Shown here: positions 12,332 to 50,039 of the stretch, piece by piece
How positions within the stretch are numbered: position 1 is the first letter of the stretch
Layout: the number at the start of each line of letters is the position of its first letter
Assembly: GCF_036324505.1 (NCBI RefSeq)
Contig: NC_086352.1
Span: 19,527,637 to 19,591,636 of the forward strand
Direction: 5' to 3'
Origin: Eleginops maclovinus
Lineage: Eukaryota; Chordata; Actinopteri; Perciformes; Eleginopidae
DNA: 64,000 nucleotides
Position numbers and translations under genes: made by a program
Notes under the pieces: generated by a model
Database searches by the model: none
What the model was told of the DNA's origin: nothing
Seen by the model: the letters and a program-made list of their open reading frames with translations, nothing else

Positions 12332-14040
12332 ATGCTTTATCACTGGTCTATAAAAATGCACACACATACACACTGAGCCTGTGCCGTCGCGTACACAGAA
12401 CCCAAAATGATAAAGGTTCATGGCTCTGATATTCTGATTTGGATATTCCCCCCCCCATGGTAATATTACATAGATATTTAACATACCTGTATTCTTACCT
12501 CATTTGTATAAACATGACCTTGACAGTTAGCAACAATCTAATTACTCTTGGCAGTGCCATTGAGTACCATATGTTTTCATTTCTTTCTGTAGGGAACATA
12601 TCTGATATTAGTACATGCAATCTTGTTGGTGCTGACCCCCGTTTACTCCATTTAGTCACGCCAACTTTTATTTTTCTCTTATTTGTCTGTGTAACATTTT
12701 ATATAACCAAACTTTTTTAGATGTGTTTTTTCCCAGGGGTCTTTTGGGGTCTGAAGAATATATTTTGAGAACATACCTTGATTCTTCTTTGCACATGCTC
12801 TGTTGCTGTGATCTTTGCCACTGTGTCACACAGTCCTGTCTCAGGCAAGTCAAACCAGCCCGACCTGCCGCTCCAGTTTCATGGGGAGGTGCCAATCACA
12901 ATAACAAAAGCTAGAGGTTGTTTCCGAGGCGAGGCTGAAAATACCCGACAATGATGTTTGCATGAAGGTATGGGGTCAGATGGAAATCCCCTATTTCAGC
13001 CTTGTGCAGTCAAAAGTTTAAGCTATCTAGAAAGGACGTTTTGAAACACTCCCCTTCAAGGTTTATTTGATCAGATTATCAGAAAAAGTACCTCTGAGTC
13101 TTCCAGTTTAAAATGTGACGCAGTTTTAAATGTGACACATTTAAAACAGGTTACAGGTGTGGTGGGGCACAGATGTAAAGTTATAAAAAAAGAAATCTAC
13201 ACGAACGATTGAACTGTACAGCAAAAATAGTTTAATTTTCCAGAGTTGTATAAAATTTGACATATTTGTAAATCTCCAAATATTTATTTCTTGCTCCTTT
13301 GAATGCCTGTCCTACCAAATATCCACCCCTTTTTATTGTTTAAGTAGTTAAATGACAAATTTAGACAGAAAACAGCAGCTGTGCCCAATGTCATTGCTTC
13401 GCTGTATATATTGACCCCAGACGTTTGTGTTGCCCTATGTTTTTGTTTGTGCATGTATCTCGTACTGTATGCGCTCCACTGCATTTGCCTTAGTTACCAT
13501 TTTTCATCAGAGGCCTTGCCAGTCTGTCATAGGATTATGCATTTGTCATCCATCAAGACTGGATACATCTTTCCTGTTGTGATCAGATCACACCTCGATT
13601 TATTTGCTCTGCCCATGAACAATTCCCTCACAATATTCAGATTTTAGGAAAAACGGCTGTCCATTTTCTTATGGAGAAATATGCATTGCAGGCTTTTGTT
13701 GTACAGCGTGGACACGTCACTGCAGCCTAACCACACCTAGCTCTGCTTGCATGGAAAATTAATGGTGGCCTCTAATAAATGATTCAGTGATCTCTGGCAG
13801 TGAAGAACAGCTTTATAAATTAAAGCTATCCAGCTGGGTGATGGACACAGTTCATTGATAGGTTCAACATGTGTGGCAGGGTAGACATATTAACACTAAC
13901 AACTGTGATCTTCTCACTGTCTTTTCTATGTCTGACTGTTCTCTCATGCTAAACACTGACACATAATGGTGTCTGATTGCAGAAATGATTTTTCCACTGT
14001 ATACTGAAGTAACAATTGAATAAAGATTATTTAGAACTGG
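12332..14040 (+). other. ist1: ist1 3' UTR
   Basis: No new coding exon is seen after the ist1 stop. A consensus AATAAA occurs at 14019-14024, followed by a T-rich/GT-rich stretch. A 3' UTR of about 1.7 kb would match the long 3' UTR known for mammalian IST1. The exact end is inferred. Confidence 0.6.
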
Positions 14041-16440
14041 AAGCTGGTGGAACTTCTTTTTTACTTTTGACTCTTTTTGTTGTTTACAATAACTTCCTGT
14101 TTGTTACTGCGATGTGAAGTAGCTACCAGCAGGGGTCCTCAGTGTCGAGAGAAAATAGGTACTACTAAATATATAACTACTAAAGTAATACGGACATACA
14201 ACAAACATTTACTTAATGTAAAACATAATGTGGCTTATGAGTTTTGTATTTCTTAATCAGATAATCAGTTTACCTTCTTTATGCATCCTAATAGTCCTGT
14301 CTGATCAATCCTGCATCACATTTAGACATGTTTACCTGCTGAATATATGAAAATACACTCAGCTGAAATATATCTGTAAGGGGACACACGTTAGGGGAGC
14401 TTGGCAGATGGGAAAAAGTGCCACCCATTAGCTTTCCTGCCACTCTATAAATATTTTGATAATCACAAATAGCTCTTAAGGTCAGACTTACTGTATCTTT
14501 GTTTCTGAATATATTTTTTAGAGCTTGTGTAATACAAAATGTAGCAGACAAGGCTTTATTAAGACATGATTATGTCTTTTATTCACTACTAAGGGTTTGG
14601 TAGTCCATCTTAGACTTTTGGTTTACATTCTCAGGTGTGTTTGTAGAAGAGTGAAGTGGAGTCGGTGTGAATGAGCTGGACGTTTGTTAACCTAGAAAGG
14701 TCAACCACTTTTCAGACTGTGCTTTGTTGAATAAACAAATCAAGTTAGTTTACATGCCATGCATTTGAAAGGCTCTCTTATCCTTCAAATGCATTCAACC
14801 TACCAGAAACCAGAGCTAGATGTTATTAAAGGTGTTTAATATCAATCATTTGGGTTGACTCCCTAACATTATTTTTAGCATGTGTTACATCACAATGCCA
14901 CCTATCTGATTTGTGGCCCAGTGACAGACTGAGGTTTATGTTTAACCCAGACAGCGAAAAAGGGACTCATGCAACTTTCCATATATACTTTTGTGTTACT
15001 CCAGGCTCCTGAAACACATAATAAACTGACAAACGTATCATTGCTATCTCACAATACACAGCAGCATTGATGACGTAATCTCTTCCTTTTTCTCGGTGAT
15101 GGATTGCATCAGCCAATTATTGTGGCAAGAATGCGGTTGGGCTATTCTGCAGAAACTTGGAAAGAAAAAAGATGGCTCCTGACACAACAGGAGCTGGGAG
15201 CTGATGGCGAATAATATAAAGCAAATCATTTTTTATCTGCCAAGGTTATTCCACTGAAAGGATGCATTTTGCGAAAGGGATAATCACAGGCTGGTTTTGT
15301 TGTTGAATTATCTCATCACTATTGAAATGATCATTATATAGTTGTAATATTTGCTCTGTGTTCTTTAAGACTTCACAGGCTTCCTGTCCAGTTCAGGGGA
15401 TCAGAATCAGAAACTGAGGATGGAAGCCCTCAGATGATTGATTAGACTATTTGTGATGGTTTTTGAATAGTTATTGTGAATTATCAGACGGCCATCTTTT
15501 GTTTTATTTTGGTGTTTAACATTCAGCATGCTCTACAAGGACACAGATGAGAGTGATAGTAAGGAAAATATTAACTTTCACAACTTGTCAAATGCATTAT
15601 TTTGGATGTGATAAAATTGCAAGATGTCCATTCAGCAACCAAACGGCACTGTGTGTCAACAGAATGCCTAACGGATGCTGAAGCGCAGTTCATCCAAAGT
15701 CTATCAGGAAGGCAAAAACAAATCTTAATCGAAAGTGTTGTTGTGAGTCCGATTATAGTCCCTGATTATTAAATAAATAAAGAGATATAAAGATGATATA
15801 CATCAGTTTATTCAGTTTCACACATGTAATACCTACACAGTCACATTAATAAATGTCATGTAAATAGATGTAGTTAGATCTGCTACAAAATCATTCGTTT
15901 GGAGGACAGACTGAATCACATAGAAAGTCGGCGTATGAGGAGAGCTGCTGACATGCACCTTCAGAACATATTACAGTGAAACGAAGGTGGAAAGAAAAAA
16001 GTAATCAATTAATAATCTGTTTCCATATGTCCCACATATTACATAAAGGCACCTTTTCACTCTAATAAAAACCCATCTTAATGCGCGGTCTCACGCGACA
16101 CGGCAATGACTAGTCAAGTTAACAGCATTTAGGAGTTGCTTAATTCTAAATATGTCTATATGTCCATATTTTCAAAGTAACTTAAAGTGAATGATGTATG
16201 CTAACAATAAATATTGGAAGGATTGTTATTATTTCATGCATTAAACGAAAAGGATTCCTTTTTTCCCCCCATGGTAAGCCTATGAAGTATCGTTTACAGA
16301 AATAATTTACTAATCAACAGCTCTACTAAACCCCAAATTTACTCAGGTGAACTTGGGTAAGATAACATTTGGTATAGAATATCTCTACATACATTCAATA
16401 ACTCTAGCGTGGATTTCTATTATAATATTGATGAGTATGT
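14041..16440. other. Intergenic region between ist1 and the pkd1l3-like gene
   Basis: No exon recognised on either strand. I looked specifically for minus-strand exons that could code for a polycystin channel domain downstream of the pkd1l3-like stop and saw none; open frames are short and not membrane-like. Confidence 0.5.
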
Positions 16441-16445
16441 TTTCT

Positions 16446-16451
16446 TTATTG
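16446..16451 (-). terminator. Candidate polyadenylation signal of the pkd1l3-like gene
   Basis: Minus-strand AATAAA (plus TTTATT) lies about 300 bases after the proposed stop at 16749-16751. It is the closest good signal noticed; the actual site was not established. Confidence 0.35.
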
Positions 16452-16748
16452 CTTGGTTGAAGACAGTTTTTCAATAACCTAAAGAGCTCATGATGTCTAG
16501 ATTTTAAAAATAAACACTATAAAATGCAAGAACAACAGTTATTTATTTACCCATTTACCCTGACTCACTCTTTCAGAAAACTTCCTCATGCACTGGGAAC
16601 TCTGTACACGTAGAAAACACCAAGATTAATATTTTATCTAGAAAGTATAAACTTCCAAAAAGTGCAAGAGTGTTTAAGAAGTCAGGGTGTCGTGGATCAC
16701 AGCTGTGCCCATAGAAGAAAACAGCTTCTCTCGCTTTATGCAGCCTCC

Positions 16749-19700
16749 TCACAGGGTGGGTCTGCCAGAGTAGCGACCACACTTGATTTGTTGCTCTGGA
16801 AAATGGAGAGGACAGTAGTAAGACTCTGCACTTTACTGCTCTTTATCTGAAGGAAGGATGCACTGTTACACTGAAGAGAGAGAAGTAAGTTGGGAGGAGC
16901 AGAAAACTAAAAGGGTCACAACTTTATATTTTATAAAGCAAATATTATTTTACAGTTTCATATGCGTCATTACATAAGGGCTCTCTGCAGGCATCTCAAA
17001 TCAATTTAAACAATGAAGGATGATACCTGTGTCTGCTTTATAAATGATCAACAAGTAGTTTGGACTAAATCATTTATGTGAAAATTATATTTAGAGGCTT
17101 TTCAAATGCTGCATCCAATTTATACATTGTCAGTTGATAATCCTTCAAAATATTGATTAAACCAGCCTTTAGGATAATGAAAAACAACAGCGATGAAAAG
17201 CTACTATACTGGTTACATTTCAGGACTAACCATTGCAGGCATAAGATGAGCACAGACAATATTAAAGACAAAGAAAAGAGCTGGAGTAAACAATATATGA
17301 ATCATTGTATCTGCAATTTAATCCAGCATTAAGTGCACAATATTTTACATATTAACAGCAAGACATATGTACACTGAACCTGTTCTGGTAACAGATGGTC
17401 TGCATAATGTTCATCTTACCTAACTTCAACTGCTCAATTTCCTCAGATTCCTCCACAGCTACAGGTTTCAGCAGCAGGGCAAAAAAGACAGCAATTCCTA
17501 TCACCTGTAAACAAAGACAAGCCACAAGGAAGCTGAATATCTTAAATAAAGTCATATTAGTGTGATGCTGGAACAAATACAGTTTCCTGTTTTTACCCAC
17601 CTTGAGAGGCTGCAGTATAAAGATGCTCTGGAAGAGGGAGAGACCCAGAGACATGACCCACTTGATGGACTTATCTTTGCCATATTCCAAGCCGTAGAGC
17701 AGGGTGAAGAAAGTGGATATTCCACTGATGGACAGCAACAGGAACCAGCCAAGGAACACACACCACCAGGGCAGCCAAAATGTCGGTGTCTTCTTCCTCT
17801 TCTTTACTGGAGGTGGGCTGAGCCAACCAGGAAGAAGAAATGAGATGAAAACACAGAAGATACTCCAGTTAAACAAAATCAGTCATATTTTTAATTTTTG
17901 TTTAGATTTCTTTTGTGTCGACAGGATTGCTGACCAGTAGGCCAAGTGGCTGCTGAAGACCATCTCGGCTTTGCGAACCAGCACGTTGGTGATGTTGAGG
18001 GTCTGCTGGTATTCCTGTGGACTCGGGAAGTTCCTTTCATCCAGTTTCTCCAGACACATCAGCAGGTGACAGAGACCAGCCAAGAGGAACTTGCTGCAGT
18101 AAACCCAGTGAGGGGCACTCTCACTCTCACCTTTGACAGGATTACATAAACACCAGCGTGTGTAGTTATGCATATCTGTGAACTGTATGTCAAGAATCAC
18201 GTCGGGGTTATGACTTAATGGGCTTAGGACTGAGATAAGATAGGCTGGGAGAGTTGTTCAGAATCTCACTCTGTAGCTTTGGTCTTTTAGTTGGATATAT
18301 ATGGCCTTAAAGGGGTTCTGTTATGCTAACTTTGATGTTCATATTTGTATATTCTGCCTTTATTGTGATTTGTTTACATGCTTTAATGTAATCAGGCTAG
18401 CACAAGGGAGTCAATGCAATTTTTTTTAAATACCTTGCATAAGCTGGATGAAATCATGAACCATGTCCAGGGCGTAGCGGAGGTCAGAGGTGGACTCCAG
18501 CCTGTGCACCTCTGACATCATGTTCCTCGGACTAATGCTTATCATGGAAATAACTTCCTCTGTTTCCTAGGGATATTCAAGGGATGCACAACACATAGCA
18601 AATGCCAAATTTTTCACTGTCTGATCAAAGATATGGAAATTAAGACTATATACTTGGCTGTCAAAGGTCAGTGGAAAAAATGGATGAAAACACTTAACAT
18701 TTCTTAAGGAGAAAAAATGAAAATTGGCCCTCGAAAATGGGCTTACAAGGTCAGCGATGAGGTGTTGCAATAACAAGCCCCATAAGAAAGATGCTGAAAA
18801 CACTCACACCCAAAGGCATTTGATAATAGATAACACACCTTCAGAATAGATGGTAAGTTAATAGGGGGGGGTCTGAAGTTCTCCTCAGAGTCTCCTTTTT
18901 GAGATTTTGAAATGACGCGGGGCTTGATGCTTCGAAAGATGGTGATGATGAGGATGTTGATTGGAAACATGAGCAGACCACTCTGCACCCCCACCATGAG
19001 CTCCTGCCATGTGATTTGCATGGAACCTGTGGTGACAGTGAGCAAGGAGCAACTTAAGAGGTCAGAATCATCAAATCGGCGCATTCGGTTTATGTCTCTC
19101 TCCTAAAGTCTGTACGCTACCTCCCCAACACCAAACAGCACATAGATATTGTTAGCAACTAGCTGGTGAATATTGAGGAGCCTTTTGCTCAAGGGTCAGA
19201 TATTTCCTTCAAAGTCGATGAAGATTTTTTTTTTTTCACTTGACCAAAATCAATTTAGATATTACTCTCATTATTGAAAAAAAACGGTATAAAAACTTGG
19301 ATAATTAATGAAATCTATTAAAATGCTTGTATTTGACTGTTTACAGTGTTTACAATTTAAGAGAGTTTTACGGTTTTAATTTTCGTTTCAACAGAAGCGG
19401 CTGTGAAGGTCATCAGGAAGTTTTCTATTTCCCTCCTACATCAGGACGGAGACGAGCATTTCTATTCGACCAGTGGATTCAACAAGAGAAAGAAGTAACA
19501 ACTTAAAAATGTAGATCTGCAGATGTAGAAGTGCCAGTAAGTGCAATTTAGACAATAAATCTATCTACTGCTGTGATATTGAGGCACTGTTTTCTGAGAA
19601 AGTTTGTATCATAATTTCTCTTCTGGCCTTGTGGTTATGTATGAGTTGTTGTATGCAAAGGAAATGATCTTTTGTAGACTTTTTCTGATTAGTAATGTTG

Positions 19701-22700
19701 GATTGTTAAAATCAAAGGAATTGAGTGTTGACTTGACTGAATGAATACTTTTGCAATTTTTTCATCTTTGGGCATGGAGGAACGTTAGTATTTTCAACAA
19801 AAGGCTGAAGAGTCCCAGAAAGTAATTTCTGTTTAATCAAAGTCAAGTTGGATAGCTTTTTGTTTCTGTCAAGTTGATTCTAAAGTCATCAAATGTGTGA
19901 CCGGGGTCCACACTTTAATTAATAAGCTATAATAGTCAAGTCTTAGCAATTCACCAAATTCGAAGACAATGGGCGAATCCTCTTTTATAGGGATGTTCCA
20001 GAAGGCGATGTTGATGGCCATGGTGCAGAGGAGCAGGCTCATACAGCAGGAAACCCTCTGGGCACGTGTGAACGGACTACGTGATGGAGGGTCCACGACG
20101 GACACCCAGATGTGTTCATCCCTGAAGCCTGTTGAGGTTCTAGTCTGGAAAATATTCCTGGAAAAGAAACACAGAAACCCATAATGACACTTCCTCAAGT
20201 GTTGAATAGTTTTTATTTTAGCAGTAGAAAGTGAACTGACCTGAAGCTGGTAACTTCGTTGTTCTTCGCAGCATTGAAGGTTTTCTTGGTCATGTTGTCC
20301 CCATGGTCATCACTCAGCCAGCAGTGACAAAAGAAGTGAAACACCTGCCGTGTTTGGAGGTCCTGTACGGTTACCTTGTTTATGTACCTTTTTATAAAAT
20401 GAAAAACATTATATATTTATCCTATGGTTTAATTTATGTGGGAAATGTAAATGTTAAATAATAATTAAGTTCCACTTTGCAAAACAGCAGCATCTGATGG
20501 CCGCAAAAAGAGTGATTTTTATATGGTATTGGGCAGTTTGTGTATTTTATTTTGAGGTTTCCATTAACCTCTTACTGTATGCAGTGTATAGTTTCAAAAG
20601 CAAGTTGTGTTATGGCCCTCATCATTTCTATTATAGTATTACTATTGCTTATCTACATTACTTCATGTAGATTCAAGGGGTTACTGTTAAAAGCCAGAAA
20701 AGTTTCCAGCAGAGAGGCAATAAACACTTCCTGGACACAGATATAGAAAAAAACCTGTTAACGACTTTCCAATGACACCTACCAATTAACCACATGTTCT
20801 AGGGAAGAGCTGAATCGATACAATCATAAAAAACAAACAGCTATGACAATATAATGATAAGGTATAACCTAAAATCAAATCAAATAAAGTAAACATCATT
20901 TATACTTGTTTGAGCATTGACAAATGCCCTTCAGGTGCGAATACTTTTTTTGTTGTACCATGCACTGATCTTGAGTAAAACTAAGTGTTTTAAATGCTTA
21001 TGTTGTACCATGATGGACGACCCCCAGAGTTGTCGTGCTGCAGTCTGAGGTTTCGCACTTCGCCCAGAGGGAAGGGTGTTGCCAGCATGAACATATCGAC
21101 AGCTCCTCTCTCAAACACAGGCTTGTCAGGGTCTGTGAGGACGTGTGTGTCACTCTCGCCATCTGAGCCAGTCAGCTTCACTGTCACCTACAGGACAACA
21201 CAACAAACGCATTAATCATAGGTTCTCACATCAGTCATCTGAACCAATATTGTGTAAAAGACCACACAAAAGTGTTACCATTTAACCCAATTACTACAGT
21301 GTTGAACACTCCACATAACTCCCAACCGTTTGGTAAAGCAAACCATAGATAAGTAACTAAAATGATCAGTACATTTTTCTAGGCTTAATCATTCCAGTAC
21401 CTTATAAAAGACACAAAATAAGTTTACAGAAATACATCACGGTAAACGTATAATAATGCGGTAGAAGTATGCATTGATTATTAAAAAATGGTTATCCTTG
21501 TAATCTTATTTTGATTATTATATGAGCTATTCAACTTTCAGCAGCTATATATATATACTGTATATATATATATGTGTATATATATACAGTGGGGCAAAAA
21601 AGTATTTAGTCAGCCACCAATTGTGCAAGTTCTCCCATTTAAAAAGATGAGAAAGGCCTGTAATTTTTATCATAGGTACACCTCAACTATGAGAGACAGA
21701 ATGAGAAAAAAAATCCAGAAAATCACATTGTAGGATTTTTAAAGAATTTATTTTCAAATGATTGTGGAAAATAAGTATTTGGTCAATAACAAAAGTTCAT
21801 CTCAATACTTTGTTATTTACCCTTTGTTGGCAATGACAGAGGTCAAACGTTTTCTGTAAGTCTTCACAAGGTTTTCACACACTGTTGCTGGTATTTTGGC
21901 CCATTCCTCCATGCAGATCTCCTCTAAAGCAGTGATGTTTTGGGGCTGTCGCTGGGCAACACGGACTTTCAACTCCCTCCAAAGATTTTCTATGGGGTTG
22001 AGATCTGGAGACTGGCTAGGCCACTCCAGGACCTTGAAATGCTTCTTGAGAAGCCACTCCTTCGTTGCCCTGGCGGTGTGTTTGGGATCATTGTCATGCT
22101 GAAAGACCCAGCCACGCTTCATCTTCAGTGCCCTTGCTGATGGAAGGAGGTTTTCACTCAAAATCTCACGATACATGGCCCCATTCATTCTTTCCTTTAC
22201 ACGGATCAGTCGTCCTGGTCCCTTTGCAGAAAAACAGCCCCAAAGCATGATGTTTCCACCCCCATGCTTCACAGTAGGTATGGTGTTCTTTGGATGCAAC
22301 TCTGCATTCTTTCTCCTCCAAACACGACGAGTTGAGTTTTTACCAAAAAGTTCTATTTTGGTTTCATCTGACCATATGACATTCTCCGAACCCTCTTCTG
22401 GATCATCCAAATGCCCTCTAGCAAACTTCAGACGGGCCTGGACATGTACTGGCTTAAGCAGGGGGACACGTCTTGAACTGCAGGATTTAAGTCCCTGGCG
22501 GCGTAGTGTGTTACTGATGGTAGCCTCTGTTACTTTGGTCCCAGCTCTCTGCAGGTCATTCACTAGGTCCCCCCGTGTGGTTCTGGGATTTTTGCTCACC
22601 GTTCTTGTGATCATTTTGACCCCACGGGGTGAGATCTTGTGTGGAGCCCCAGATCGAGGGAGATTAGCAGTGGTCTTGTATGTCTTCCATTTTCTAATAA

Positions 22701-23196
22701 TTGCTCCCACAGTTGATTTCTTCACACCAAGCTGCTTACCTATTGCAGATTCAGTTTTCCCAGCCTGGTGCAGGTCTACAATTTAGTCTCTAGTCACCTT
22801 TGACAGCTCTTTGGTCTTGGCTATAGTGGAGTTTGAAGTATGACTGTTTGAGGTTGTGGACAGGTGTCTTTTATACTGATAACGAGTTCAAAAAGGTGCC
22901 ATTAATACAGGTAACGAGTGGAGGACAGAGGAGCCTCTTAAAGAAGAAGTTACAGGTCTGTGAGAGCCAGAAATCTTGCTTGTTTGTAGGTGACCAAATA
23001 CTTATTTTACCGAGGAATTTATAATTAATTCATTAAAAATCCTACAATGTGATTTCCTGGATTTTTTTTTCTCATTCTGTCTCTCATAGTTGAAGTATAC
23101 CTATGATGAAAAATTACAGGCCTCTCTCATCTTTTTAAATGGGAGAACTTGCACAATTGGTGGCTGACTAAATACTTTTTTGCCCCACTGTATATA

Positions 23197-23241
<45 letters not shown>

Positions 23242-26200
23242 ACACCATGACACCATTCTGTCAATCAAAAGTGACTCTTACATTGGCAGTAGTCCCAGCA
23301 TTCTTACGATGGCCAGTTTGGACACCAATCAGATAATTGTACTGAGCACCGGGGTGGTTGTCTTCCAGCAGAGTCATCTTCCTCTGATATTTCAACAGAA
23401 AACATTGTGGTGAATAAATGTGAATGTTTTTGCAGGTGGAATTAATAACATTGCACTCTTTTAAACTAGTGGTGAAAGCACACTTATTCAAGTACTGTTC
23501 TTGAATAAAACATTTTTTACATTTTATGCCACTTTATACTTTTATTCCACTACATGTGGATGCCAATACTTTTCACTGCACTACATTTATTTTATTTGAT
23601 ACTTTATAGATTCGCGTATTAATACTAGAAGTAAATCAAATAATAAACTTGTATGATAATGCAGATGGAGAATGATTTTATTGTACTTAAAGGCATGTTT
23701 ATGAGGGCTGTTAGATGAAACTGACCTTAGAGCGTGACCTGCGGTCAGCATAGCAGGCCCACAGCAGAGTGACCAGGTAGAGACCGAAGAAGGCGCACAG
23801 CAGAGCCAGCACCACAAAGTTCTCAGACACAGTGGAAAACAGCTGTGCAGTGCGAGATAAGTCGATGTAGTTTGGCATCACAAAGAAGGAGCTCCCAAAG
23901 AGAGTCAGGTGGTTACACAGACACTGTGTTTGCTCAGGAGTGCTTTTGTCCCCTACCTGAGACGAAGAGAGCACATTACTGTGTGATATGCAACTACTGG
24001 TGCTATACGAGAACATTGCTCAACATGCATAGGAGAAAGCAATACAAACAAGTCCATCACTCTTTATAATGGTGGAAATGTACCTTGCAACCATCAGTGC
24101 TCCATGTCTCCTTCTTTATGTCCCAGTACACACACTTGGCCATAAAAGAGTTGATCCTTAGTTCCAGACCTTGTTCCCAGGAGGAATTAACAAGTTCTGA
24201 TTCAATATACCAGATTCCAAGAGAATTATTATACATCTCTGGGGTTATCATCCAGCGATAGCCTCCTGTTCCAAAAACCAACCAGTATAACGTCATGACA
24301 AGAACCAATTGGAAGAAATCAATCAAATACTTTTTGTGTAGTGTAAGCACATGCCGATCATGCAAACAATGGTAAAATGGAGTCTGTTGCTGTGTGGTAT
24401 TATACTCACCTGGACCAGATTAGTCCTATTGCTACAGAGTGCTACAGATCTAAAAACTCTATGTGCTTTTTTTAACAGAGACTAGGGCATGCAGCAGAGA
24501 CAGTTACCTGTTAGGCTCAAGTTGGTTGTGTTACTGAAGTATGTGTCGTTTGGAGGTAACCCTTCAGACAACCTCAGGACCAAGGACACATTGGCATTGG
24601 GCTCCACAGTTAAGCAGATAGTCACATCAGGGTCTGTGACGTTGATTTTGGTAAGTACTTTTGTGTTTTTTTCCAAAACAATTGTACTGTTTGTTGGCCT
24701 TGAAGCATTTGGATGCGATATAAAGATCTGAACAAACCATGAAAATTAAGTTAATTAGCAAATGAGTTTATTTAGTTTTCATATTGACAATAAAAACAAT
24801 ATCTAGGAGTAAAATACATTGTGTGTTCAGTCACTCTGTCCAACCTAACTAATTAAAACTAATTTTTTTCATGTTCATGTGATGTGACATGTTAATCTTT
24901 CTTCTGCCGTAATCAAGAATTGCCCTGACATGCCCTGTGGAGGTATCTTAACGTTTAATTGTGTGCTTGTGATGCACAACATCGTGCAAAAACGACCTTT
25001 GTTTGCCACATTAACCCCAAAACATTAGCACTGTGCTACAAATCATAAAACCCACTTTTCATGTTGGCTTTACCTCTATCATATCTGACAGGTTTGACAG
25101 CTTTATTTCCGACTTTTTATTACTAAGTAAAAGGCTGCAAACAGTTCCTGAGATTTGGACTGAATCAGATGGATGTGGATTCCTTAAGAATGTAGCCATC
25201 TAACAAAGAGAAGAGATCTGATGAAAAGGCTGTATATTACAATGAAAATAAAGACACACGTATGTATGATGATAACACACACAGACCTGAACGGTGATTC
25301 TGTCGTATTGTCCAAGTTGACCCTTAAGCGCTGAAAATGAGGGGAGTTTGATGAATATACCATCTTGCTCTGAACCCAACACAGCATTGCCTAGATCTTC
25401 AGGTGTGTGACTAAGAGTAGGGAAATAAAATGTTGAATATACAGTCAATTTGTTTATATTTGCAGCTATTTTGATACAGTAAAAAATAATGAAAAGTTGC
25501 ATATTGATTTGACATAATTAAGCGAGACTATATAAGAAGAGACCTACGTGCTTTGATAGATGGTGCCTTTTGGGTGCCTGAAGATAACTTGCTTTTGGTA
25601 TTTTAAACCCACCAGCTCCGATACTATGCGAAAGATCTCAAAGACGTCCTCAAACAAAGACTGGAGAGAAAAAATGCATCATCATCTGACTGTAAGAGCA
25701 AGAATACCGACTCAATGTCCATGGTTGCCTCATACAGTACTTACAGTAGGGTTTGGGTTGTCCTCGATGTCACATTTGTTGATTGAGAGAAAAAGGATGC
25801 CAGAGCTGCATTTGATTATTTTAATGATAGTGTCATTGTCTGGCAAAAAAGAGTCATCGAGCAGCTTTGTAGCGCCAAGCAACAAATACCGAATGAAATT
25901 GTCCTGTTATAGGAAAATTAGACAATCAATGAATGTGCCATGATAGCAGAAAAAGGATGAATCTTGCCACAAGAATAATGCAATATTTTCCACAGGCTTT
26001 CCAAAGTGAAGGTACACACCCTGTTGTCTTGTGTGGGCTCATCTACTGTTGTTTCCATTCGCCGTAGTTCTTCTTCTGCTGCCTGTCTCAGAAAAACAGC
26101 ACTTGTGAACTTTAAGGTACAATTACATAACTATTAGTATTCAAAGGTTTTCATGATTCAAAGGTAAAACAGTCTTTGTGAAATAATGACGCATCTCTTA

Positions 26201-27957
26201 CCACGAGAAGTTTATCAATATTTGCAACAGACGATAGCATGTCAGATAAGCTACTCCTTTTGGGTCCTACAAAAGAATGTTTGGGAAGTAGAGAAAAATA
26301 GAGATGCAGGTAGACAAGCTCAGTCTTATGTTCCCTACTAAGTTAATGGAAATTATGGGTTACATCATGTTTCAAACTTACGCAATCTGGTTGCATGTCT
26401 TGAAACCATTGTGCTCTGGAAAGAAGACATGAACAAAACTAACATTTGAGAATTGAGTTTTCATTTTAATTTGGCTTCTTGTACACTGTGAACATTATTT
26501 CTTACCTTTGTGTTTGAGGCAGACAACTCATCTTAAAAACAAGAATGACACTTGTAAAAGACAGCCTATTGCACTTTTTTTTAAAACTGTAATAAAGCTT
26601 CATTCAGTTGATATGTAAGAAAAGTAAGGCAAGGAAAGACAAGTAAAGGAAAAGGTAAGGAAGGACGGAGTTAAAGCAGTGATAGGGAGGCTGTTGTTGC
26701 ATACTGTGCGTGCAGAGAAATCCTCGTCTGTGGTTGCAGTCGGGTGATAAGATGAGCTGAAAAGGATCGAACTTTATGTAGGTACAGTTTTCCTTTGAAA
26801 CTTCAGCGTTTCCTGTTTTGGAAAAAAGTTGGGTGTACATAATCACACACAGAGGAAAACCCTTGGCAAAGCTGAATTTTTGGGACATTGCTAAGAGAAA
26901 CGATTGTGTGATCCTAAACCGAGAGAAGAAAATCCGATTGGTCTGAACCTTTTGACTAAACAAAAGTTAAATATCTATTAAATCCAGAGTGCAGAGTGGG
27001 TCTTAAATTTCTTGTTTTTTATAACCAACAATCAAAAACACATTACTTTTAATTACAGGTTACGCTTGACAAATACCTCAATATATTAATGTAAAATACA
27101 TATTAATTAACTTTCCAAATTTTGTCCATCAATTTTCTGCTGATAGACATTTTAGACTGTGATCTTTATCACTAAAAATATTTGCTCTTTCAGGATACAA
27201 TTATGTAACATAATAATGAATGAGAACTAATAAGAAAGTGAGGTTAACATATTACTTGTCCAGACGGCTTTAAAGGATATAAAAAATACATAGGCCTAAT
27301 TAAAAAAACAATGTGCCGCCAACATCTTGAAATATTTTGTCACGCTTTGTGCCTTCATTAAAGTATTTCAAAAGTCTTACATTAAGGGTTCATTTATTAT
27401 GTCAATACATTTTGCTCATATGTGCGCTTTTTGTCATTAAAAATGTTGAGTTACATTTTAGACACATGGCCTTTGATAATTAATACAATATTTAACTATC
27501 AAACACTTTGCATGTAACCTGTGACAGGAGATCTCAAACAGACATGAGCGAAAAACACTATGAACTATTTAAAAAAAAAAATACACCAACAAAAGAAATG
27601 CAGCGTGTGTGGACGTTACTCACTTAAGGTGGGTTCCTGGTGCTGACCTTGGACCCCCTCCCCCAGCCACCAGGTGAAGTTGCTGATGTTTCCCTCTCTG
27701 GTGATGTTCTTCAGGAACATTTTGATTGGGATGTTCATCACCTTTAAGAGATCCCCTCCTCGGATTGCACAGCTGCTCCTGGCTTGGGACCAGGTTTCAG
27801 ATCCCCTAACAAACTCAAAACAGACATTTCTGAAAACAAATTGACATTGCGCAGGGAGGTCGTTGCCTGTAAAGGCAGAGGCATCAGAGTTTTCTGGTAA
27901 ACATAAAAATCCAACTGAAAGACAAAAAAAGACAGATGTTTGCAGTAAGGAGCCCAT
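16749..27957 (-). CDS. pkd1l3: Polycystin-1-like protein (PKD1L3-like): C-type lectin, GAIN/GPS, PLAT and about five TM segments, no channel domain
   Basis: Twenty-three exons join in one frame (1119 aa): 27957-27624, 26890-26705, 26531-26506, 26415-26382, 26266-26202, 26082-26020, 25903-25745, 25660-25548, 25410-25287, 25199-25074, 24727-24508, 24265-24084, 23956-23726, 23383-23282, 21187-21009, 20387-20241, 20157-19955, 19026-18839, 18566-18434, 18130-17935, 17817-17601, 17504-17420, 16795-16749. Order: signal peptide ([15 protein letters not shown]), C-type lectin (about 37-172, ending [11 protein letters not shown]), GAIN region, GPS ([11 protein letters not shown] to [14 protein letters not shown] cleavage near residue 561), TM1, PLAT (about 622-750), then hydrophobic segments to residue 1090. 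In mammals PKD1L3 (about 1730 aa) pairs with PKD2L1 in taste cells. Here the protein stops after YSGRPTL, before the TM6-TM11 channel. The gene symbol rests on synteny; pkd1l2 is the alternative. The last exon and the exon 20-21 join are the least certain. Confidence 0.8.
18307..18391 (+). repeat. Short copy of the mphosph10-intron repeat
   Basis: AGGGGTTCTGTTATGCTAAC and the following bases, including TTGTTTACATGCTTTAATG, align by eye with 4380-4465 (CCCCTATAATGC ... ATGTTTTCATGCTTCAATG). It lies in an intron of the pkd1l3-like gene and is a diverged end fragment of the same family. Confidence 0.5.
21547..21586. repeat. (TA)n microsatellite, left of the Tc1 element
   Basis: Alternating TA with a few interruptions (TATATATATACTGTATATATA). 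It continues on the other side of the element at 23191-23239, which marks the empty site as one TA repeat. Confidence 0.85.
21587..23190 (-). mobile_element. Near-complete Tc1/mariner DNA transposon, 1604 bp
   Basis: Terminal inverted repeats of about 165-170 bp start CAGTGGGGCAAAAAAGTATT at 21587 and end with the complement at 23190, with a TA on each side as expected for Tc1/mariner target duplication. It sits between two (TA)n runs (21547-21586 and 23191-23239), so it landed in a TA microsatellite. The host is the intron that splits the PLAT domain of the pkd1l3-like gene, and the transposase is in the same orientation as that gene. The TIR arms still match closely, so the insertion is fairly young. 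Confidence 0.93.
21817..22824 (-). pseudogene. Tc1-type transposase, inactivated near its start
   Basis: A 302-codon open stretch (22725-21817) holds a Tc1 transposase: the second part of the paired HTH DNA-binding region, then the DDE catalytic core with [21 protein letters not shown] and [14 protein letters not shown], so all three acidic residues are kept. The usual start is lost: the expected ATG reads ATA at 22824-22822, and codon 14 is TAA (22785-22783) where lysine is usual. The remaining frame has no ATG at its beginning, only GTG. The copy should therefore make no full-length enzyme, although its ends could still be mobilised by an active relative. Confidence 0.9.
23191..23239. repeat. 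(TA)n microsatellite, right of the Tc1 element
   Basis: About 49 bases of alternating TA directly after the right transposon end; the partner of 21547-21586. Confidence 0.85.
23495..23605 (+). repeat. Teleost dispersed repeat (CACTACATTTATTT type)
   Basis: Contains TTATGCCACTTTATACTTTT and TTCACTGCACTACATTTATT, phrases of a very common teleost dispersed repeat. Related fragments occur at 28880-29000 and 60775-61110. Intronic in the pkd1l3-like gene. Confidence 0.5.
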
Positions 27958-28499: not shown

Positions 28500-31400
28500 A
28501 TGGCGGGACATATGAAGGTAATTCCACAGACGATCTATCATCGGACATTTTGTAGGATAATCAGATAATTGGAAACGTCTTAACGAAACTTGATGTGACA
28601 GTTTCCTGTTGCTCGCTCGGTTGCTCCGCCTAAATGTAACGTTAACCAGGACACACTTCAAGTTAGCTTGGATTTTTTTGCATACTGAAACACATGCTGT
28701 GGGGGTGTTTTGCCCTTTGAAAACGACGTGGACGGTCATTGTAAGTCAGTGTAGAAAACTGCATAAAGACAGATGTTCAGGGTTATGATTTTACGACTAA
28801 GCAACTCTTACTGAGACTAAAGTCATAGCCCCTTCAAATTGTAGCCAACCCCTTAGATCTGATTACAATATATCAACATAGGCGGATGTAAGTACATTCA
28901 CTTAAGTACTGTACTTATTATACTTACTATACATTTGGGCCACTCTAACCCATATTATTATTTAGTTGTATGCTACTTTATGAGCTACAGAATATAGACA
29001 CATGGAAGTCATGGAAGATTTATAAAGAAATTCAATTTAATGTTCAATCAAAGACACATATCTATTTTCTTTAAAATGTTAATTTAAAATGGTTGTTAAC
29101 TGATGGGTTCTACTCAAGTGTAGTACTACAATTCAGCATTGATTTGTAAATATTAAATCACATGACATGGTACTTAGACTGGTAGAGTAACTGCTACCTT
29201 TGTGTTACAATTTCCATATATATTTTAGTGGCTTATGTAAGTATTGCCTAGGTAACAAGCGTTAATTGGCAGCTATGCATGAAGAAGCATTCTGTTAGTG
29301 AGCCTCTGGTTAACTCGCCAAGTAACATAACCAGTGTCAAGTAGTCTTTAAAGCAGCCATAAAGAACACAAGAGCTGGACATCTCCTAAAGTATTTGTCA
29401 GAGATAAAAAACAAAGCTAATACTAAGTGAATATTACATATACATTTGCCATGTGGCCAGAAACACAACCCCAAATGCATGATTATGTTAATTTGTAACG
29501 GTTGGATGGACAGATAAGCAAAGTTTACTATATCAAATAAATTGGTAATGATATGTCAACATTGTGTCTACAACTCCAATAGACAAAACACTGTTCACAA
29601 CACAGGGTATTGTGGAAGCTGTGTCACTGCAAACATGTTTTCATTAAACTATTAGCAGCGTATCCACAGTAATTAGAGTCTGAGAGGATTCCTTTTGAAG
29701 GCACAGTCTTATGTTTTAATTTTTGATGCTCTTCTCAACAGAAGCAGTTTAAGGACGCAGTGAAGATCATCAGCTCGGGTAGCATTCTGTTTGCCTCCTA
29801 CCTCACTGCAGTGGGAGATGAGCGTTTCTATGCCAATCAGCTGATGCCCCTGCTGCAAAAGTGTGTGGGGGCAGAGACGGCGCATGTGTTGGCAGTGAAG
29901 TTGATCGGTCTTGGGCTGGTTCCTCTGAACCGCTACCAGGACCCTGCATCATTGGTAAACATATAACCTTATTTTCTGTTTGCATTATTGTCCATTGATC
30001 CAAGAAACTGTTATACTTATTTCCGTTTGTTTTTATGTATCTTCAGGAAGTGAAAGTCCTGGGTTTAAAGTTCAAAAACCCAATTGGGATTGCGGCGGGC
30101 TTCGATAAGCACGGAGAGGCCGTCGATGGGTTGTACAAGGTCGGATTTGGCTTTGTCGAAGTGGGCACAATCACTCCCAAACCTCAGGAGGGTAACCCAA
30201 AACCACGCGTGTTTCGACTAACTACAGACCAGGCAATAATTAACAGGTATGTTTTCTAAATGCTAAGGGCCAAAGGGATCGCCATTATGAGGGTATGTTC
30301 ATCTGAATAATTAATAAACAAACAAAGATAATTACATATAGGGCAATATGCTTGAAGTTAATGTTGCTAGATTTATCAGATATTTTGACCAAATCAATTT
30401 ATTAGGCGCTACATAGAATTTGCGTTATGCCATTGGTGGATCATGTAGATGCTAATTTTTATGTTGCCATGTTTTATTGTAGAAATTCAATATTTAGGAT
30501 GATGCGCTTATTTAGTCTAAAGTATGAAGTCCTGAAAAATCATTCAGAATCAGAACAGGGACAGTCGCTGGTACCGACACAACCACTAGATCTGACAGTG
30601 TCGAAGCAACATCAAACCAGAACTGTGTTACCGGTGGACAATCCCACATCATATGTAGGAATGTTCCTGGAGACTTTAAAGTACAAAAGGAGCACAAGGG
30701 AGAGTGTCAGTTTCATGTAGAAAAGTTTGCGAGGGGTTAAATAAGTTCTATGTATGAAATGGAACCTAGGGCGGTGTCATTGTATAAGTCTTTAAGGTAA
30801 TGGATGCCACTTTTGCTCCAGTGTGATGAAGAGATAGGTCTCCCTCCAATCAGTAGCCCTTTGTTGTTAAACAGAGGGGAAAGAGTATGCCATTTACAGG
30901 ATATCTTACATTCCTTTTCTACCAAGCGCCACGTTCGAATCACATTTGAAACTAAGGGACCAAAGCGTAACATGGTTTGCTGGTCAGAAACATTAGAAAA
31001 CACGACATCTCCCAAACTCCATGGTCGTACCATTTTTTCTTCCAACTTGCGCCAAGATACTGGGGTGTCAGGATCACACCACGTAACAATAGGGCGGAGC
31101 ACAAATGACCAAAAGTAATACTTCAAATTAGGTACAGCTAAACCACCATCCCCTCTACTCCTCTGCAAGGTGGAAAGTTTCAGTCTAGGACGTATTTTGT
31201 TCCAGATAAATTGGGAAACGTCAGAGTGGAGTTTCTTCCAATAATTTGTGGGAGGGCAAAGTGGAATCATTGAGCTAATAAAATTAATTCTAGGTAAGAT
31301 ATTCATCTTAACAATAGCGGTCCAGGCCTGTAGAGAGGCAGGTAGGATAGCCCACCTATCCATATCATTCTTCAGGGTTTTATGCATTTCCAAAAAGTTA

Positions 31401-34400
31401 TGAGTTGTAATGCAATGCAAAGAAGGGAAAATCTTAATTCCAAGATATTGAAAGTGCTGGACAACAGGGACATCAGCGGGGAAAGGCAGTGTTTTCGCTG
31501 AGTCATTAAGAGGCAAAAGAGCAGATTTGGACCAGTTGATCTTAAATCCAGAGTGAGAGCCAAACTCCTCACAAATTGATAATAAATTTGGTATTGACTG
31601 AATAGGATTTTCCATAAAGACTAAGACATCGTCTGCAAAAAGAGCTACTTTATGTTTCGTTTGAAGAATCGAAATGGGGTTTATGGAGGTAGACTGTCGT
31701 ATCATTTGAGCCAGGGGTTCGAGCGAAAGGGCAAAGAGTGAAGGGCTCAAACGGCAGCCCTGTCGTGATGACCTAGTCACAGGGAATGGAACGGAAAACA
31801 ACTGCCCAGTTAGAACTTGTGCAGTGGGGTTAGAGTACAAGACCTGAATCATATGGACAAACCCTTTCCCAAACCCCATAGTTTCCAGTACAGACCACAA
31901 AAAGGACCACTCCAGCCTATCAAAGGCCTTCATGGCATCAAGCGACAGCACAGCTTGTGGGACTTTTGCATCTTTTGCAGTATCAATTATGTGAAGAAGT
32001 CGCCTAACATTGTCAGAGGCAAGTCTGGACTTGATAAATCCCGTCTGATCACAATGAACTAAAAATGGCATAAACTTTTCAATACGCCGCGCAATTAGCT
32101 TTGCGTAGATTTTGAGGTCCGCATTTAACAAACTCAGGGGTCTGTAACTAGCACAGTCTGTGGGGTTTTTGTCTTTCTTTAGGGGCAAATATATAGGGCT
32201 GTATTGACATCTCTTGACGCTTTGATCATGTCTAGAAGTAAAGGGCCTAATTTCTCCCAGAACAACCGATAAGACTCTGGAATTTCTATTATTTTCACCC
32301 ACAATATTCAGTTGAGTGACACCCTACTTTTTTGTAGAATGTCACAGATTTATTTTAGTTGTATAACATAGGGTAATTCACTGTACTGTTCTTTTATATA
32401 TCCCTCAGTATGCTCAGAGAGATGATGATGCCTACATGTTGCTATTGAAGTGTTCACATTGATACAGCTGTGAATAGGAGTTCATGGGTTTACCACTTTT
32501 CCTTTTCAAATGTAATTAGCAACACTGACTTTAATAAGCTCAATTAAGCAAATCTCTATGTGACAGCTCTTTCCTGCATTTGTTTTTATTCCTGTCATTT
32601 ATACACGCTAACATTGGAAATGTATATTCATGAGTTATTGCATCACACAATTCACCACTGAATTCAAGCTTTGCTCATGGATTTTGAAAAATCTGATCTA
32701 AATGATTCCGTATTTAACATACATTTCTTATGTGATGGTGAGAGTATAAAGTTCACCTGATTGAATTCCTTTGAAAGGATGACCTTGTTACATATAATTT
32801 ATACAGCTGTACAATATTGACACAATATACTCTTGGGAGAGTGCCTTCACTCTTGTGTGCACATGTAATGCAAAGACAAATATAATAATCCCTCAGACAA
32901 ATTACAATACACCATTCATATACACTGCCCGGCCACAAAAAAGGTCACACTCTAATATTCGTTGGACCGCCTTTAGCTTTGATTACGGCAAGCATTCGTT
33001 GTGGCATCGTTTCCACAAGCTTCTGCAATGTCACAACATTTATTCTTTGCACATCCCAAAGATTCTCAATCGGGTTCAGGTCTGGACTCTGTGGTGGCAA
33101 ATCCACGTGTGAAAAGGATGTCTCATGCTCCCTGAACCACTCTTTCACAATTTGAGCCCCGATGGATCCTGGCATGGTCATCTTGGAACATGCCCGTGCC
33201 ATCAGGGAAGAAAAAATCCATTGATGGAATAACCTGGTCATTCAGTATATTCAGGTAGTCAGCTGACCTCTTTCTTTGGGCACGTTGCTGAACCTAGACC
33301 AGACCAACTGCAGCAGACACAGATCATAGCACTGCCCCCACAGGCTTGTGACCTTTTTTTAGGCCGGGCAGTGTGCGTATCATGCAGATACCAACAAATC
33401 AGGGCAAACCTTCCTGGAAGTTTCTCCATATAATTATGTGCATGTTGTGAAACAAGTTTGTATCTTATAACACAATGAGAAATAATTTTACACACCCTTT
33501 GGTTATTATTATTTGTGATGAAAAATAACTTATTATTGATATCTGTAAGGTGATATTTGAGTAGTTTTTAATGTGTGCTGTATGTGTGTGCTTCTCACCA
33601 GGTATGGATTCAACAGCTGTGGTTTGGCAGAAGCGCAACAGAGGCTCAAGGCCAGAGGCGACACACAGCAACAGCAAAGTAAAGGTCAGCAAGCTCTTTA
33701 GTCTTTAAATGTGTGATTTGCCATCAGTTTTATTACTACAACCTGGTGAAATCTGTCCTGTTCTATTTTTGGTGTTCATTTATATTTTAACTTTTCACGT
33801 TACAAATGAAGCCATATACTAAATCGGGTATAATCAAATACACTATTTTCTCCTATTTGAATGATATACCTATTGATAATTTGTCTGCGGATGCAGCCTT
33901 TGTTTGTGATTGCCTCAACCTTCCTGTGTGTTTGCATATGTGGGTGTGTCTGTGTTTATAGCTGGCTTTCCCCTTGGCATCAACCTGGGGAAAAACAAGG
34001 TGTCGCGTGACGCAGGAGCAGATTACTTGGAGGGGGTGAGGGTGCTGGGCCCGCTGGCTGACTACCTGGTGGTCAACGTCAGCAGTCCTAATACGCCGGG
34101 TCTCAGGGATCTACAGGGGAAGGAAGAGCTCCGCCAACTTCTACAAACGGTGGGACTGTCCAAATGTTTACTTACTTGCTGGGTTTTAATCCTGCACTGA
34201 CAAAAATATAAATTACATTTTATCAGCTGAGCCTTTCCCCTCGAAAAAATAAAGTTATCATCTTATCAAATGGCTTTTACTAATCAACAATCATCACCAA
34301 ACTAATTATTTTTAGCAGTAAACACAACATTAACAATATCATCTTTTAAGCAGCAAAACTAGTTTGCAAAAAATCATGGAGTTAAACTAGTCCAACTAGC

Positions 34401-48414: not shown

Positions 48415-49986
48415 TCAGGACTTCTCAGCATGTGGGGGGGAGTGATCTCGCTGAAAGAGCAGTTTCAAACCCTTCCTGAAGCGATGGTCCCTGACACTGT
48501 AGATAATGACGTTACAGCAACTGTTTCCTGTCAGCATCCAGAAGGCAAAAAAGGAAAAGTTACACCAGGTGTATCCCACCACGTTCCCGAGCACAAACAC
48601 TGCGATGGGAGAGAATGATGCTGTGAAGGCAAATGTGAGTATGCTTATTGTCTTGGCGGCTTTAATGTCTGAAAAGGAGGGCCTGTGAGAGCACCCTCCC
48701 GCACCTCCTCCTCCCGCTCCGTCACTCAGACTCCCTTCTGAGAGCAGTTTGCGTTTTTGGGAGTACCGTCTGATGCTTGTAAAAGACACAATGTTAACTG
48801 CTAATGTCCCACCAAGCAGTGTGAAGTCAAATGCTGGGAATAACAGCAAAATGTTGGCATCGGGTGGCAGCTGGCTCCTGAACATTAGAGGGGTGTAGTT
48901 ACACATACGACTGCACTCATTGTACTCCAAAATGAAGTTGCTGCTGAAGATGAGGGGTGCGAGAGCCAACAGGAAGCTGGCAGCCCAGGAGAGCAGGATG
49001 AGCAGTAGAGTTCTTCTCCCGGTCACCAAGGCATCCTTGTGGAGAGGTCGTAGAATGGCCACACTTCTCTCCAGCGTCATGAGGAAGATAGTGCTGATGG
49101 AGACAAAGGTGCATCCAGCAAATACGGGGCCAATCAGCAGGCAGGGCTGCCAAGTGCTCACCAGTCCCCCGAGAGAGGTGTTCAGGAAAGTAGAACTACC
49201 CTGGTACCAAGACGGAGGTGAGCTGGTCAACATGAGAGAGATCTCGGTGTAGACGCAGAAAGGGACAACGAGGACGCCCACCATTATGTCTGCTATGGCC
49301 AGAGACACTGTCAGAGAGCGACAAAAAGAGTAAGAGGGCTAGGAGGACATATTCAGGACAGTTTTTTTGTCAACACATTTCCAGCTCATTTCGTTAAAAC
49401 TTCACTTTTTAATGACAATTATCCAATGTTGGCATTCAAAAAGGTACTGCAATTAATAAACAATTAATAGGATTTAGACCTTAGAAGTTCTTGTGGTATT
49501 GACAGGATGATACATTCGTATTATTATTGTATAACAACATTGATATTATAGTTATATGAAATTCCATTATGCCATTTATCAATTTTGAAAATGAATATTG
49601 AATTTCTATCAGAGGAAGGTATTGTGGAATGTGTAAGCATATCTACATTGCATTGGTTTGTTCAAATAACTTTTGAAAGAAAACAAAATAATACATCTAC
49701 CTTTTAGGTATCCCTGTGGTGTTCGGTACTGCCTCGTTTGCACAAAGACAGTAAGGATGACCACATTTCCAACCACAATGGCGAAGGCCAGGATAACCAT
49801 GAACACCACTGCCAAGGTACGATTGACATATCCACAGCAACAGATGGTGCAGAATGGGGCCAGTGACTTTCCTGAGCCGAGTGCATCCTGAGCTGCTGCT
49901 GCACTCAGGTTGAAGGGAGAGTATGTGGCCTGCAGCTGAGCAGCTGTATTCCCAGGAACGCTTACGTTGTAAAGCAGCGCTGTCAT
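48415..49986 (-). CDS. Class A (rhodopsin-like) orphan G-protein coupled receptor
   Basis: Two coding exons, 49986-49701 and 49307-48415, join in phase to 392 aa. The start is the ATG at 49986 (MTALLYNVSVPGNTAAQ); the open frame reaches further upstream only through a GTG. The extracellular N-terminus has N-glycosylation sites (NVS, NLS, NRT). TM1 has GNVVILTVF, TM2 SLAIADIMVGVLVVPF with Asp2.50, TM3 begins after Cys3.25 (WQPCLLIGPVFAG), TM4 has LLSWAASFLL; ECL2 contains NECSRMCNY. Atypical points: LERSVAI replaces DRY, TM6 FTASFSPIAVF lacks the CWxP tryptophan, TM7 ends GNSCCNVIIYSV instead of NPxxY, and position 3.32 is Phe so an amine ligand is unlikely. I could not place it in a named receptor family. 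Confidence 0.85.
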
Positions 49987-50039
49987 CGCCCGGGATAGAC
50001 TGGTCTTACCCCTGTGATGTGTAGGTGATAGGGCCACTC

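Follow-up and report, generated by a model that had tools for sequence, protein, structure and literature searches.

Whether a polycystin-1-like gene that stops short of its ion-channel half is a damaged gene, an incompletely predicted gene or a complete gene of a different design is the question raised by a locus of Eleginops maclovinus. The window, the whole stretch of 64,000 nucleotides analysed in this study, which covers contig positions 19527637-19591636, carries such a gene, which an earlier note on this DNA described as a PKD1L3-like receptor without a pore. In England et al. 2017 (PMC5318412), the pkd1l3 of teleosts and gar is reported to be only partial and to lack the channel domain, and this gene is suggested to be in the process of being lost.

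Gene structure

We rebuilt the gene model independently and rechecked it. The coding span lies at 16749..27957 on the minus strand (27957..16749 in reading order) and comprises 23 exons, with GT-AG boundaries at all 22 introns, consistent phases and no internal stops, so that the joining of 23 exons in one frame in the earlier note is borne out. That note was also correct on the last exon, on the stop and on where exon 22 ends (17420), while its protein length of 1119 was too high; the rebuilt product is 1093 aa long and has the C-terminus ...EQQIKCGRYSGRPTL. The stop lies 42 residues past the QPLKV motif of the fifth transmembrane segment (TM5). The annotated protein P0001 of Eleginops maclovinus (PBY51_019056) is 100% identical to residues 74-1093 of the rebuilt model. 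This database model lacks the first 73 residues, which hold the signal peptide and the start of the lectin domain, and the N-terminus added to it resembles the N-termini of related species (six compared).

All of the exons are located on the minus strand. Exon 1 (27624..27957) encodes the N-terminal signal peptide and, behind it, the first part of the C-type lectin domain (Pfam Lectin_C, residues 53-145), consistent with the N-termini of relatives, and exon 2 (26705..26812) encodes the remainder of this domain. Exon 3 (26506..26531), exon 4 (26382..26415) and exon 5 (26202..26266) encode linker sequence. The region preceding the GPS is GAIN-like by position and begins with exon 6 (26020..26082), followed by exon 7 (25745..25903), exon 8 (25548..25660), exon 9 (25287..25410), exon 10 (25074..25199) and exon 11 (24508..24727). 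Because the Pfam GAIN model matched nothing in the protein up to E 10, we infer the GAIN domain from its place before the GPS. The GPS (residues 501-539, E 5.7e-12) is divided between exon 12 (24084..24265; residues 458-518), which holds its first half, and exon 13 (23726..23956; residues 519-595), which holds its second half (CLCNHLT), the stalk and TM1 (hydropathy peak 565-583). The PLAT domain (residues 612-726, E 2.9e-22) starts in exon 14 (23282..23383), continues through exon 15 (21009..21187) and ends in exon 16 (20241..20387). TM2 (peak 773-791) is encoded by exon 17 (19955..20157) and TM3 (peak 815-833) by exon 18 (18839..19026). Exon 19 (18434..18566) encodes a loop, and exon 20 (17935..18130) encodes loop sequence with a weaker hydrophobic peak at 921-939, beside the approximately five TM segments seen by hydropathy. 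Exon 21 (17601..17817) encodes TM4 (997-1015) and the start of TM5, a long last helix at about 1028-1067; it ends with ...QPLK and aligns weakly to polycystin-1 (6a70_B). The end of TM5 and an acidic tail are encoded by exon 22 (17420..17504), and the terminal exon 23 (16749..16795) encodes EQQIKCGRYSGRPTL and the stop TGA, an end common to 106 of the 119 listed relatives. On the same strand, some 200 bases beyond the stop, there is an AATAAA polyadenylation-like hexamer (16542..16547), and a second one is located at 16445-16450.

The protein has the GPS of the polycystin-1 family, and its PLAT domain lies between the TM1 and TM2 peaks, as in that family. In the PDB comparison, residues 535-844 align to polycystin-1 (6a70_B), and the GPS is matched by the adhesion GPCRs 6v55_A and 7qu8_A. 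Pfam gave no match to a REJ domain (up to E 10) or to a 7tm domain in the protein, and a PDB search with the translated stretch 17352-17882 of the window, which contains an intron, gave no matches. The 11 TM segments and the channel half of polycystin-1 (Polycystin_dom PF20519 and PKD_channel PF08016) are lacking.

Genomic neighbourhood

Pfam identifies Mpp10 and Ist1 on one side of the gene; on the other side are matches to DHO_dh, to a rhodopsin-type receptor and to a trypsin-like fragment. The gene therefore occupies a locus beside dhodh, and England et al. report PKD1L3 near DHODH in the genomes that they examined, those of mammals, teleosts and gar (PMC5318412).

The intron between exons 14 and 15 contains a Tc1/mariner-type transposon (21581-23196) with 88-nt terminal inverted repeats that are 99% complementary. 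Its transposase frame, read from stop to stop on the minus strand, is 321 aa long and has Tc3, DDE and Sleeping Beauty HTH matches; the element looks young. A LINE-like fragment with an RVT_1 frame of 528 aa (30737-32323) is located between dhodh coding pieces. The rhodopsin-type receptor gene occupies 48415-50037 on the minus strand, where 48415-49338 matches 7tm_1 and 49609-50037 seems by eye to be its first coding piece. The trypsin-like exon at 62770-63114 may be the fish counterpart of haptoglobin, which in human is located close to DHODH.

Absence of the channel half

The earlier note held that the protein ends before TM6-TM11 and that no channel exons are visible before ist1, proposed a PF08016 search and named clear channel homology within 14-17 kb as one finding that would speak against it. 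Pfam finds no PKD_channel (PF08016) match in the protein. The 4.4 kb gap between the stop of the gene and the stop of ist1 (12345..16748) is the expected place of a channel-bearing second module, module B (see below), on the minus strand, and no remnant of one was found there: tblastn of six relatives against 12345-16748 returned a single chance stretch of 19 aa with E 2.2, which speaks against channel exons in this gap. The PF08016 profile, run over the 606 Mb genome, gave 12 listed matches, none of them inside the window, and a 492-residue channel query from sturgeon module B found 11 places that are 28-57% identical, again with none inside the window. Both claims are upheld, and no such homology was found. 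The loss of module B was checked in one teleost genome, that of Eleginops maclovinus, and by Pfam, the genome profile search and tblastn, the channel half with which PKD1L3 joins PKD2L1 is absent.

Conservation among teleosts

A search with the poreless protein found 355 relatives, of which the best 120 were examined. These are 119 teleost-type proteins (113 named and 6 with the source tag lgn) of 615-1146 aa and the bowfin protein P0106. By name, elopomorph, clupeiform, otophysan and euteleost proteins are included in the 119, and no osteoglossomorph orthologue was seen among the matches listed. According to the precomputed domain column, PF08016 is present in 0 of the 119 listed teleost-type proteins, and P0106, the 120th, does carry it. 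The comparison with other teleosts suggested in the earlier note shows that the short end is common: the C-terminus lies 41-44 residues after QP[LM]KV in 106 of the 119 and exactly 42 residues after it in 92, and a loose terminal-exon signature is found in 104. The other 13 proteins end elsewhere, 4 to 84 residues past QP[LM]KV, with two having no motif, and most of them look like partial models or models running into an intron. The six lgn entries, a tag that we take to denote Logan assemblies of public reads, share the same end; four of them have open frames of 1073-1112 aa and two have open frames of 846-877 aa, and their contigs measure 2.7-4.8 kb. Because the 23 exons of the gene extend over 11 kb, these contigs look like spliced transcripts, and their sequences suggest that transcripts with the short end may be made.

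The GPS tripeptide is HLT in 95 of the 119 listed proteins, so the HL/T said to be kept is indeed retained in most of them; the L is replaced by N in 12 (HNT), by T in 5 (HTT) and by M in 2 (HMT), and 5 proteins fall outside the pattern used. Compared to seven non-euteleost teleost proteins, the Eleginops model shows identities of 73% in TM2-3, 70% in TM4-5, 61% in the GPS, 60% in PLAT and 52% in the tail. Conservation is poor in the lectin, GAIN-like and loop parts in this comparison (31-37%). In support of the earlier view that the domains look intact, the frame is open and the GPS, PLAT and TM parts are conserved. Across a set of 23 full-length proteins chosen for comparison, pairwise identity averages 80% in TM2-3, 78% in TM4-5, 68% in PLAT, 67% in the GPS, 61% in the tail, 49% in the loop and 41-43% in the lectin and GAIN-like parts. 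The gene evolves faster than PKD1L2 in 10 of 10 species comparisons; from Eleginops to Megalops, for example, its identity is 62% versus 79% for PKD1L2, the two Megalops proteins coming from two species. The marks of a pseudogene, namely a disrupted frame or disrupted splice sites and lost conservation, were not found in this gene.

Tandem modules in non-teleost protein models

A scan for multiple modules covered 343 proteins (342 retrieved and the rebuilt model). Two polycystin modules are present in three of them, P0240 (the frog Pelobates), P0241 (sturgeon) and P0243 (the lizard Phrynocephalus), and nine further multi-hit rows are PLAT-repeat (LOXHD1-type) proteins. In P0240, P0241 and P0243, the first module (module A) is channel-less and runs past TM5 straight into the channel-bearing second module (module B). 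The second module of lizard P0243 starts with MEPPLGMWLALLLGVCVARG, which is signal-peptide-like, and two genes were therefore probably merged by prediction. From their sequences, P0240, P0241, P0243 and bowfin P0106 each appear to be two neighbouring polycystin genes merged into one model, and in non-teleosts modules A and B are known only from such predicted, apparently merged models. The sturgeon P0241 is flagged UNVERIFIED_CONTAM and has exons missing in both modules.

Against the solved PKD1L3 chain, the frog B channel scores 403 bits, that of sturgeon 397 bits (for the whole of P0121) and that of lizard 354 bits; a fish PKD1L2 scores 361 bits, above the lizard B channel. These scores give modest support for naming module B PKD1L3 proper. 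Sturgeon P0121 was considered as an orthologue of the poreless gene and rejected, as it is module B.

The N-half of bowfin P0106 is 59% identical to the poreless gene and is joined in one predicted protein to channel domains, at a junction seemingly equivalent to the end of the poreless gene. In a channel tree, the bowfin channel and the sturgeon module-B channel form a group with support of 100/100, and a constraint that groups the three module-B channels without the bowfin channel is rejected (p-AU 4e-18). The four module-B rows do not form one group in a channel tree because the bowfin channel lies among them. Since its channel goes with sturgeon B and its N-half with A, P0106 looks like a merge, although it could be read as a full-length A; the tandem modules and the channel tree weaken it as proof of a simple teleost truncation.

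We also searched for channel-bearing relatives. With the bowfin channel part as query, sturgeon P0121 alone stands above PKD1L2-level proteins among the matches listed (best 120 of 274). With the bowfin N-half and a lengthened query covering approximately 1154-3671 residues, the models of frog, sturgeon and lizard are among the high-ranking matches, and the listed teleost polycystins are at the PKD1L2 level (40-45%; best 120 of 844 matches). No channel-bearing teleost orthologue was seen among the matches listed in both searches. P0283 of Anguilla rostrata, named PKD1L2 and 2055 aa long, has no channel domain listed and is possibly another channel-less form or a cut model.

Phylogenetic placement

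The main tree contains 27 rows extending from the GPS to TM5, and mammalian PKD1L3 N-halves are not among these rows. Module A forms a group of 16 rows with support of 99/97, comprising 12 teleost rows (the model and 11 listed proteins), the N-half of bowfin P0106 and the first module of each of the sturgeon, frog and lizard proteins; module B has support of 82/80 and PKD1L2 of 100/99. The branching order inside the module-A group broadly matches the species. When the lizard and one fragmentary row are removed, the supports are 96/98 for A and 72/69 for B. Among constrained groupings that were chosen after the first tree was seen, placing teleosts and bowfin with B is rejected (p-AU 0.0009), as is placing teleosts alone with B (3e-10). 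Uniting both the frog and the lizard modules in one tetrapod group, as expected if a tetrapod-only duplication gave rise to their modules A and B, is not rejected (p-AU 0.082); the frog and lizard rows are long branches.

The poreless gene thus groups neither with module B, as PKD1L3 would, nor with PKD1L2. Databases call most of the fish orthologues polycystin-1-like 2, and this naming is not supported by the tree, in which the PKD1L2 rows stand apart at 100/99. The PKD1L3-like identity proposed earlier is right about the lectin, GPS, PLAT and TM1-TM5 layout and about the dhodh locus, but the tree places the gene with module A. Judged from these comparisons, the gene is best read not as a channel-stripped PKD1L3 but as probably belonging with the separate module A.

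Origin of the poreless gene

We consider it likely, at a probability of about 0.7, that the gene is complete and belongs to the polycystin-1 family as a poreless member, orthologous to the module A found directly 5' of B, and that teleosts kept A and lost B. With somewhat less assurance, we also favor the view that in bony vertebrates a separate poreless receptor gene beside PKD1L3, the taste-linked channel gene, predates the split of ray-finned and lobe-finned fishes and that of the two genes teleosts retain only the receptor, the channel gene having been lost. In non-teleosts, adjacent A and B may be joined by read-through into two-headed polycystins.

A single loss of channel exons from a full-length PKD1L3-type ancestor on the teleost stem, with the shorter functional protein being kept, would also leave a short gene beside dhodh, the locus of PKD1L3 in the accessible text of England et al. 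(PMC5318412), and would fit the junction in bowfin P0106, where an orthologous N-half (59%) meets a channel at a seemingly equivalent position. We regard this history as unlikely, since a merge better explains a bowfin channel that groups with sturgeon B (100/100) beside an N-half that groups with A, and since in the sturgeon, frog and lizard models the first module has no channel and the channel belongs to a separate second module.

A decaying pkd1l3 remnant that is being lost, as proposed in 2017, agrees with the description of the teleost and gar sequences as partial and not bona fide in the available portion of PMC5318412 and with the faster change than that of PKD1L2 in all ten comparisons. 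The open frame, the intact splice sites, the C-terminus common to 106 of the 119 listed teleost proteins and the identities of 73% in TM2-3 and 70% in TM4-5 to seven non-euteleost teleosts make such decay highly improbable. There is even less reason to suppose that channel exons are present but were missed because of an assembly gap, distant exons or alternative splicing: the search covered one assembly and alternative 3' ends are possible, but channel exons were found neither in 12345-16748 nor elsewhere in the window, and none of the 119 listed teleost-type relatives has a channel domain.

Proposed function and significance

The protein is the complement of the PKD1L3 channel half, with a sensor, a stalk, PLAT, TM1-TM5 and a short tail. 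As far as the available text of PMC8357825 goes, the PKD1L3 channel half alone suffices for channel activity with PKD2L1. The poreless protein has no TM6-TM11 and therefore cannot serve as the fourth pore-forming subunit of a PKD2-type channel. The polycystin-1 GAIN domain self-cleaves and the exposed stalk is held to be a tethered agonist (PMC11458180 and PMC12513491, in the portions available), and the PC1 C-tail carries a G-protein motif (PMC9672506, likewise in part). Because it has neither the portion through which a PKD2-type tetramer is joined nor a PC1-type C-tail with the G-protein motif, the poreless protein is expected to be a cleaved receptor that acts via the TM bundle, PLAT or the tail, or that regulates another polycystin in trans. 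Judging from the motif, the region before and at the GPS would fold as a GAIN domain and would cleave itself at HL/T, and the lectin-bearing ectodomain would then remain attached to the membrane fragment. A ligand or force could expose the stalk that follows the cut, which could act on the TM1-TM5 bundle, and the signal might be relayed by the PLAT domain inside the cell and by the conserved tail on its cytosolic side. Such a receptor might signal by itself, or it might control another polycystin channel in trans.

If this reading is true, the gene is a natural experiment, a polycystin sensor half without a pore. The pore-independent receptor role of polycystin-1 proteins is a long-standing question in kidney-disease research, and laboratory fish with a conserved member that is poreless by nature would allow a direct test of it. 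Such a member would also correct the published view that pkd1l3 is decaying in ray-finned fish, as well as the name polycystin-1-like 2 used in databases. If the origin as an old paralogue is true, the sensor half would have existed without a pore for more than 250 million years.

Comparison with known systems

The gene resembles adhesion GPCRs in its GPS motif and in the stalk after the cut, but it has approximately five TM segments by hydropathy rather than their seven-TM bundle, and its PLAT domain lies between TM1 and TM2. Members of the PKD1 family without a channel half are also known from sea urchin: in the accessible part of PMC1934368, SpREJ1, 2, 8, 9 and 10 have 0-2 TM segments and SpREJ7 has 6, and the cation-channel half is found in four SpREJ proteins, with those having few TM segments falling outside. 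Unlike these, the fish protein has no REJ match, has approximately five TM segments and belongs to the vertebrate lineage. Human PKD1L2, which is called a polymorphic pseudogene, and stickleback pkd1b are reported, as annotated, to have no channel domain (PMC5318412, in the part available); these are single-species cases, whereas the poreless gene is common to the listed teleosts.

With PKD1L3 the gene shares the DHODH-adjacent locus, the lectin domain, the GPS, PLAT and the TM1-TM5 arrangement, and it differs in having no TM6-TM11 channel half and in lying outside the PKD1L3-like module B in trees. It is almost surely the partial pkd1l3 of England et al., who describe the same dhodh locus and the same missing channel domain (PMC5318412, in the text available), so it is already published that teleost pkd1l3 lacks the channel domain. 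Our searches of the open-licence PMC literature showed no report of a channel-less neighbour of PKD1L3. To the extent of these searches, three results are new: that the end point is conserved, that a channel-less module lies in tandem with B in non-teleost models, and that the teleost gene is the probable orthologue of this module A. Where the accessible text of England et al. 2017 sees a remnant being lost, our results point to a complete, conserved gene that probably derives from a separate channel-less module.
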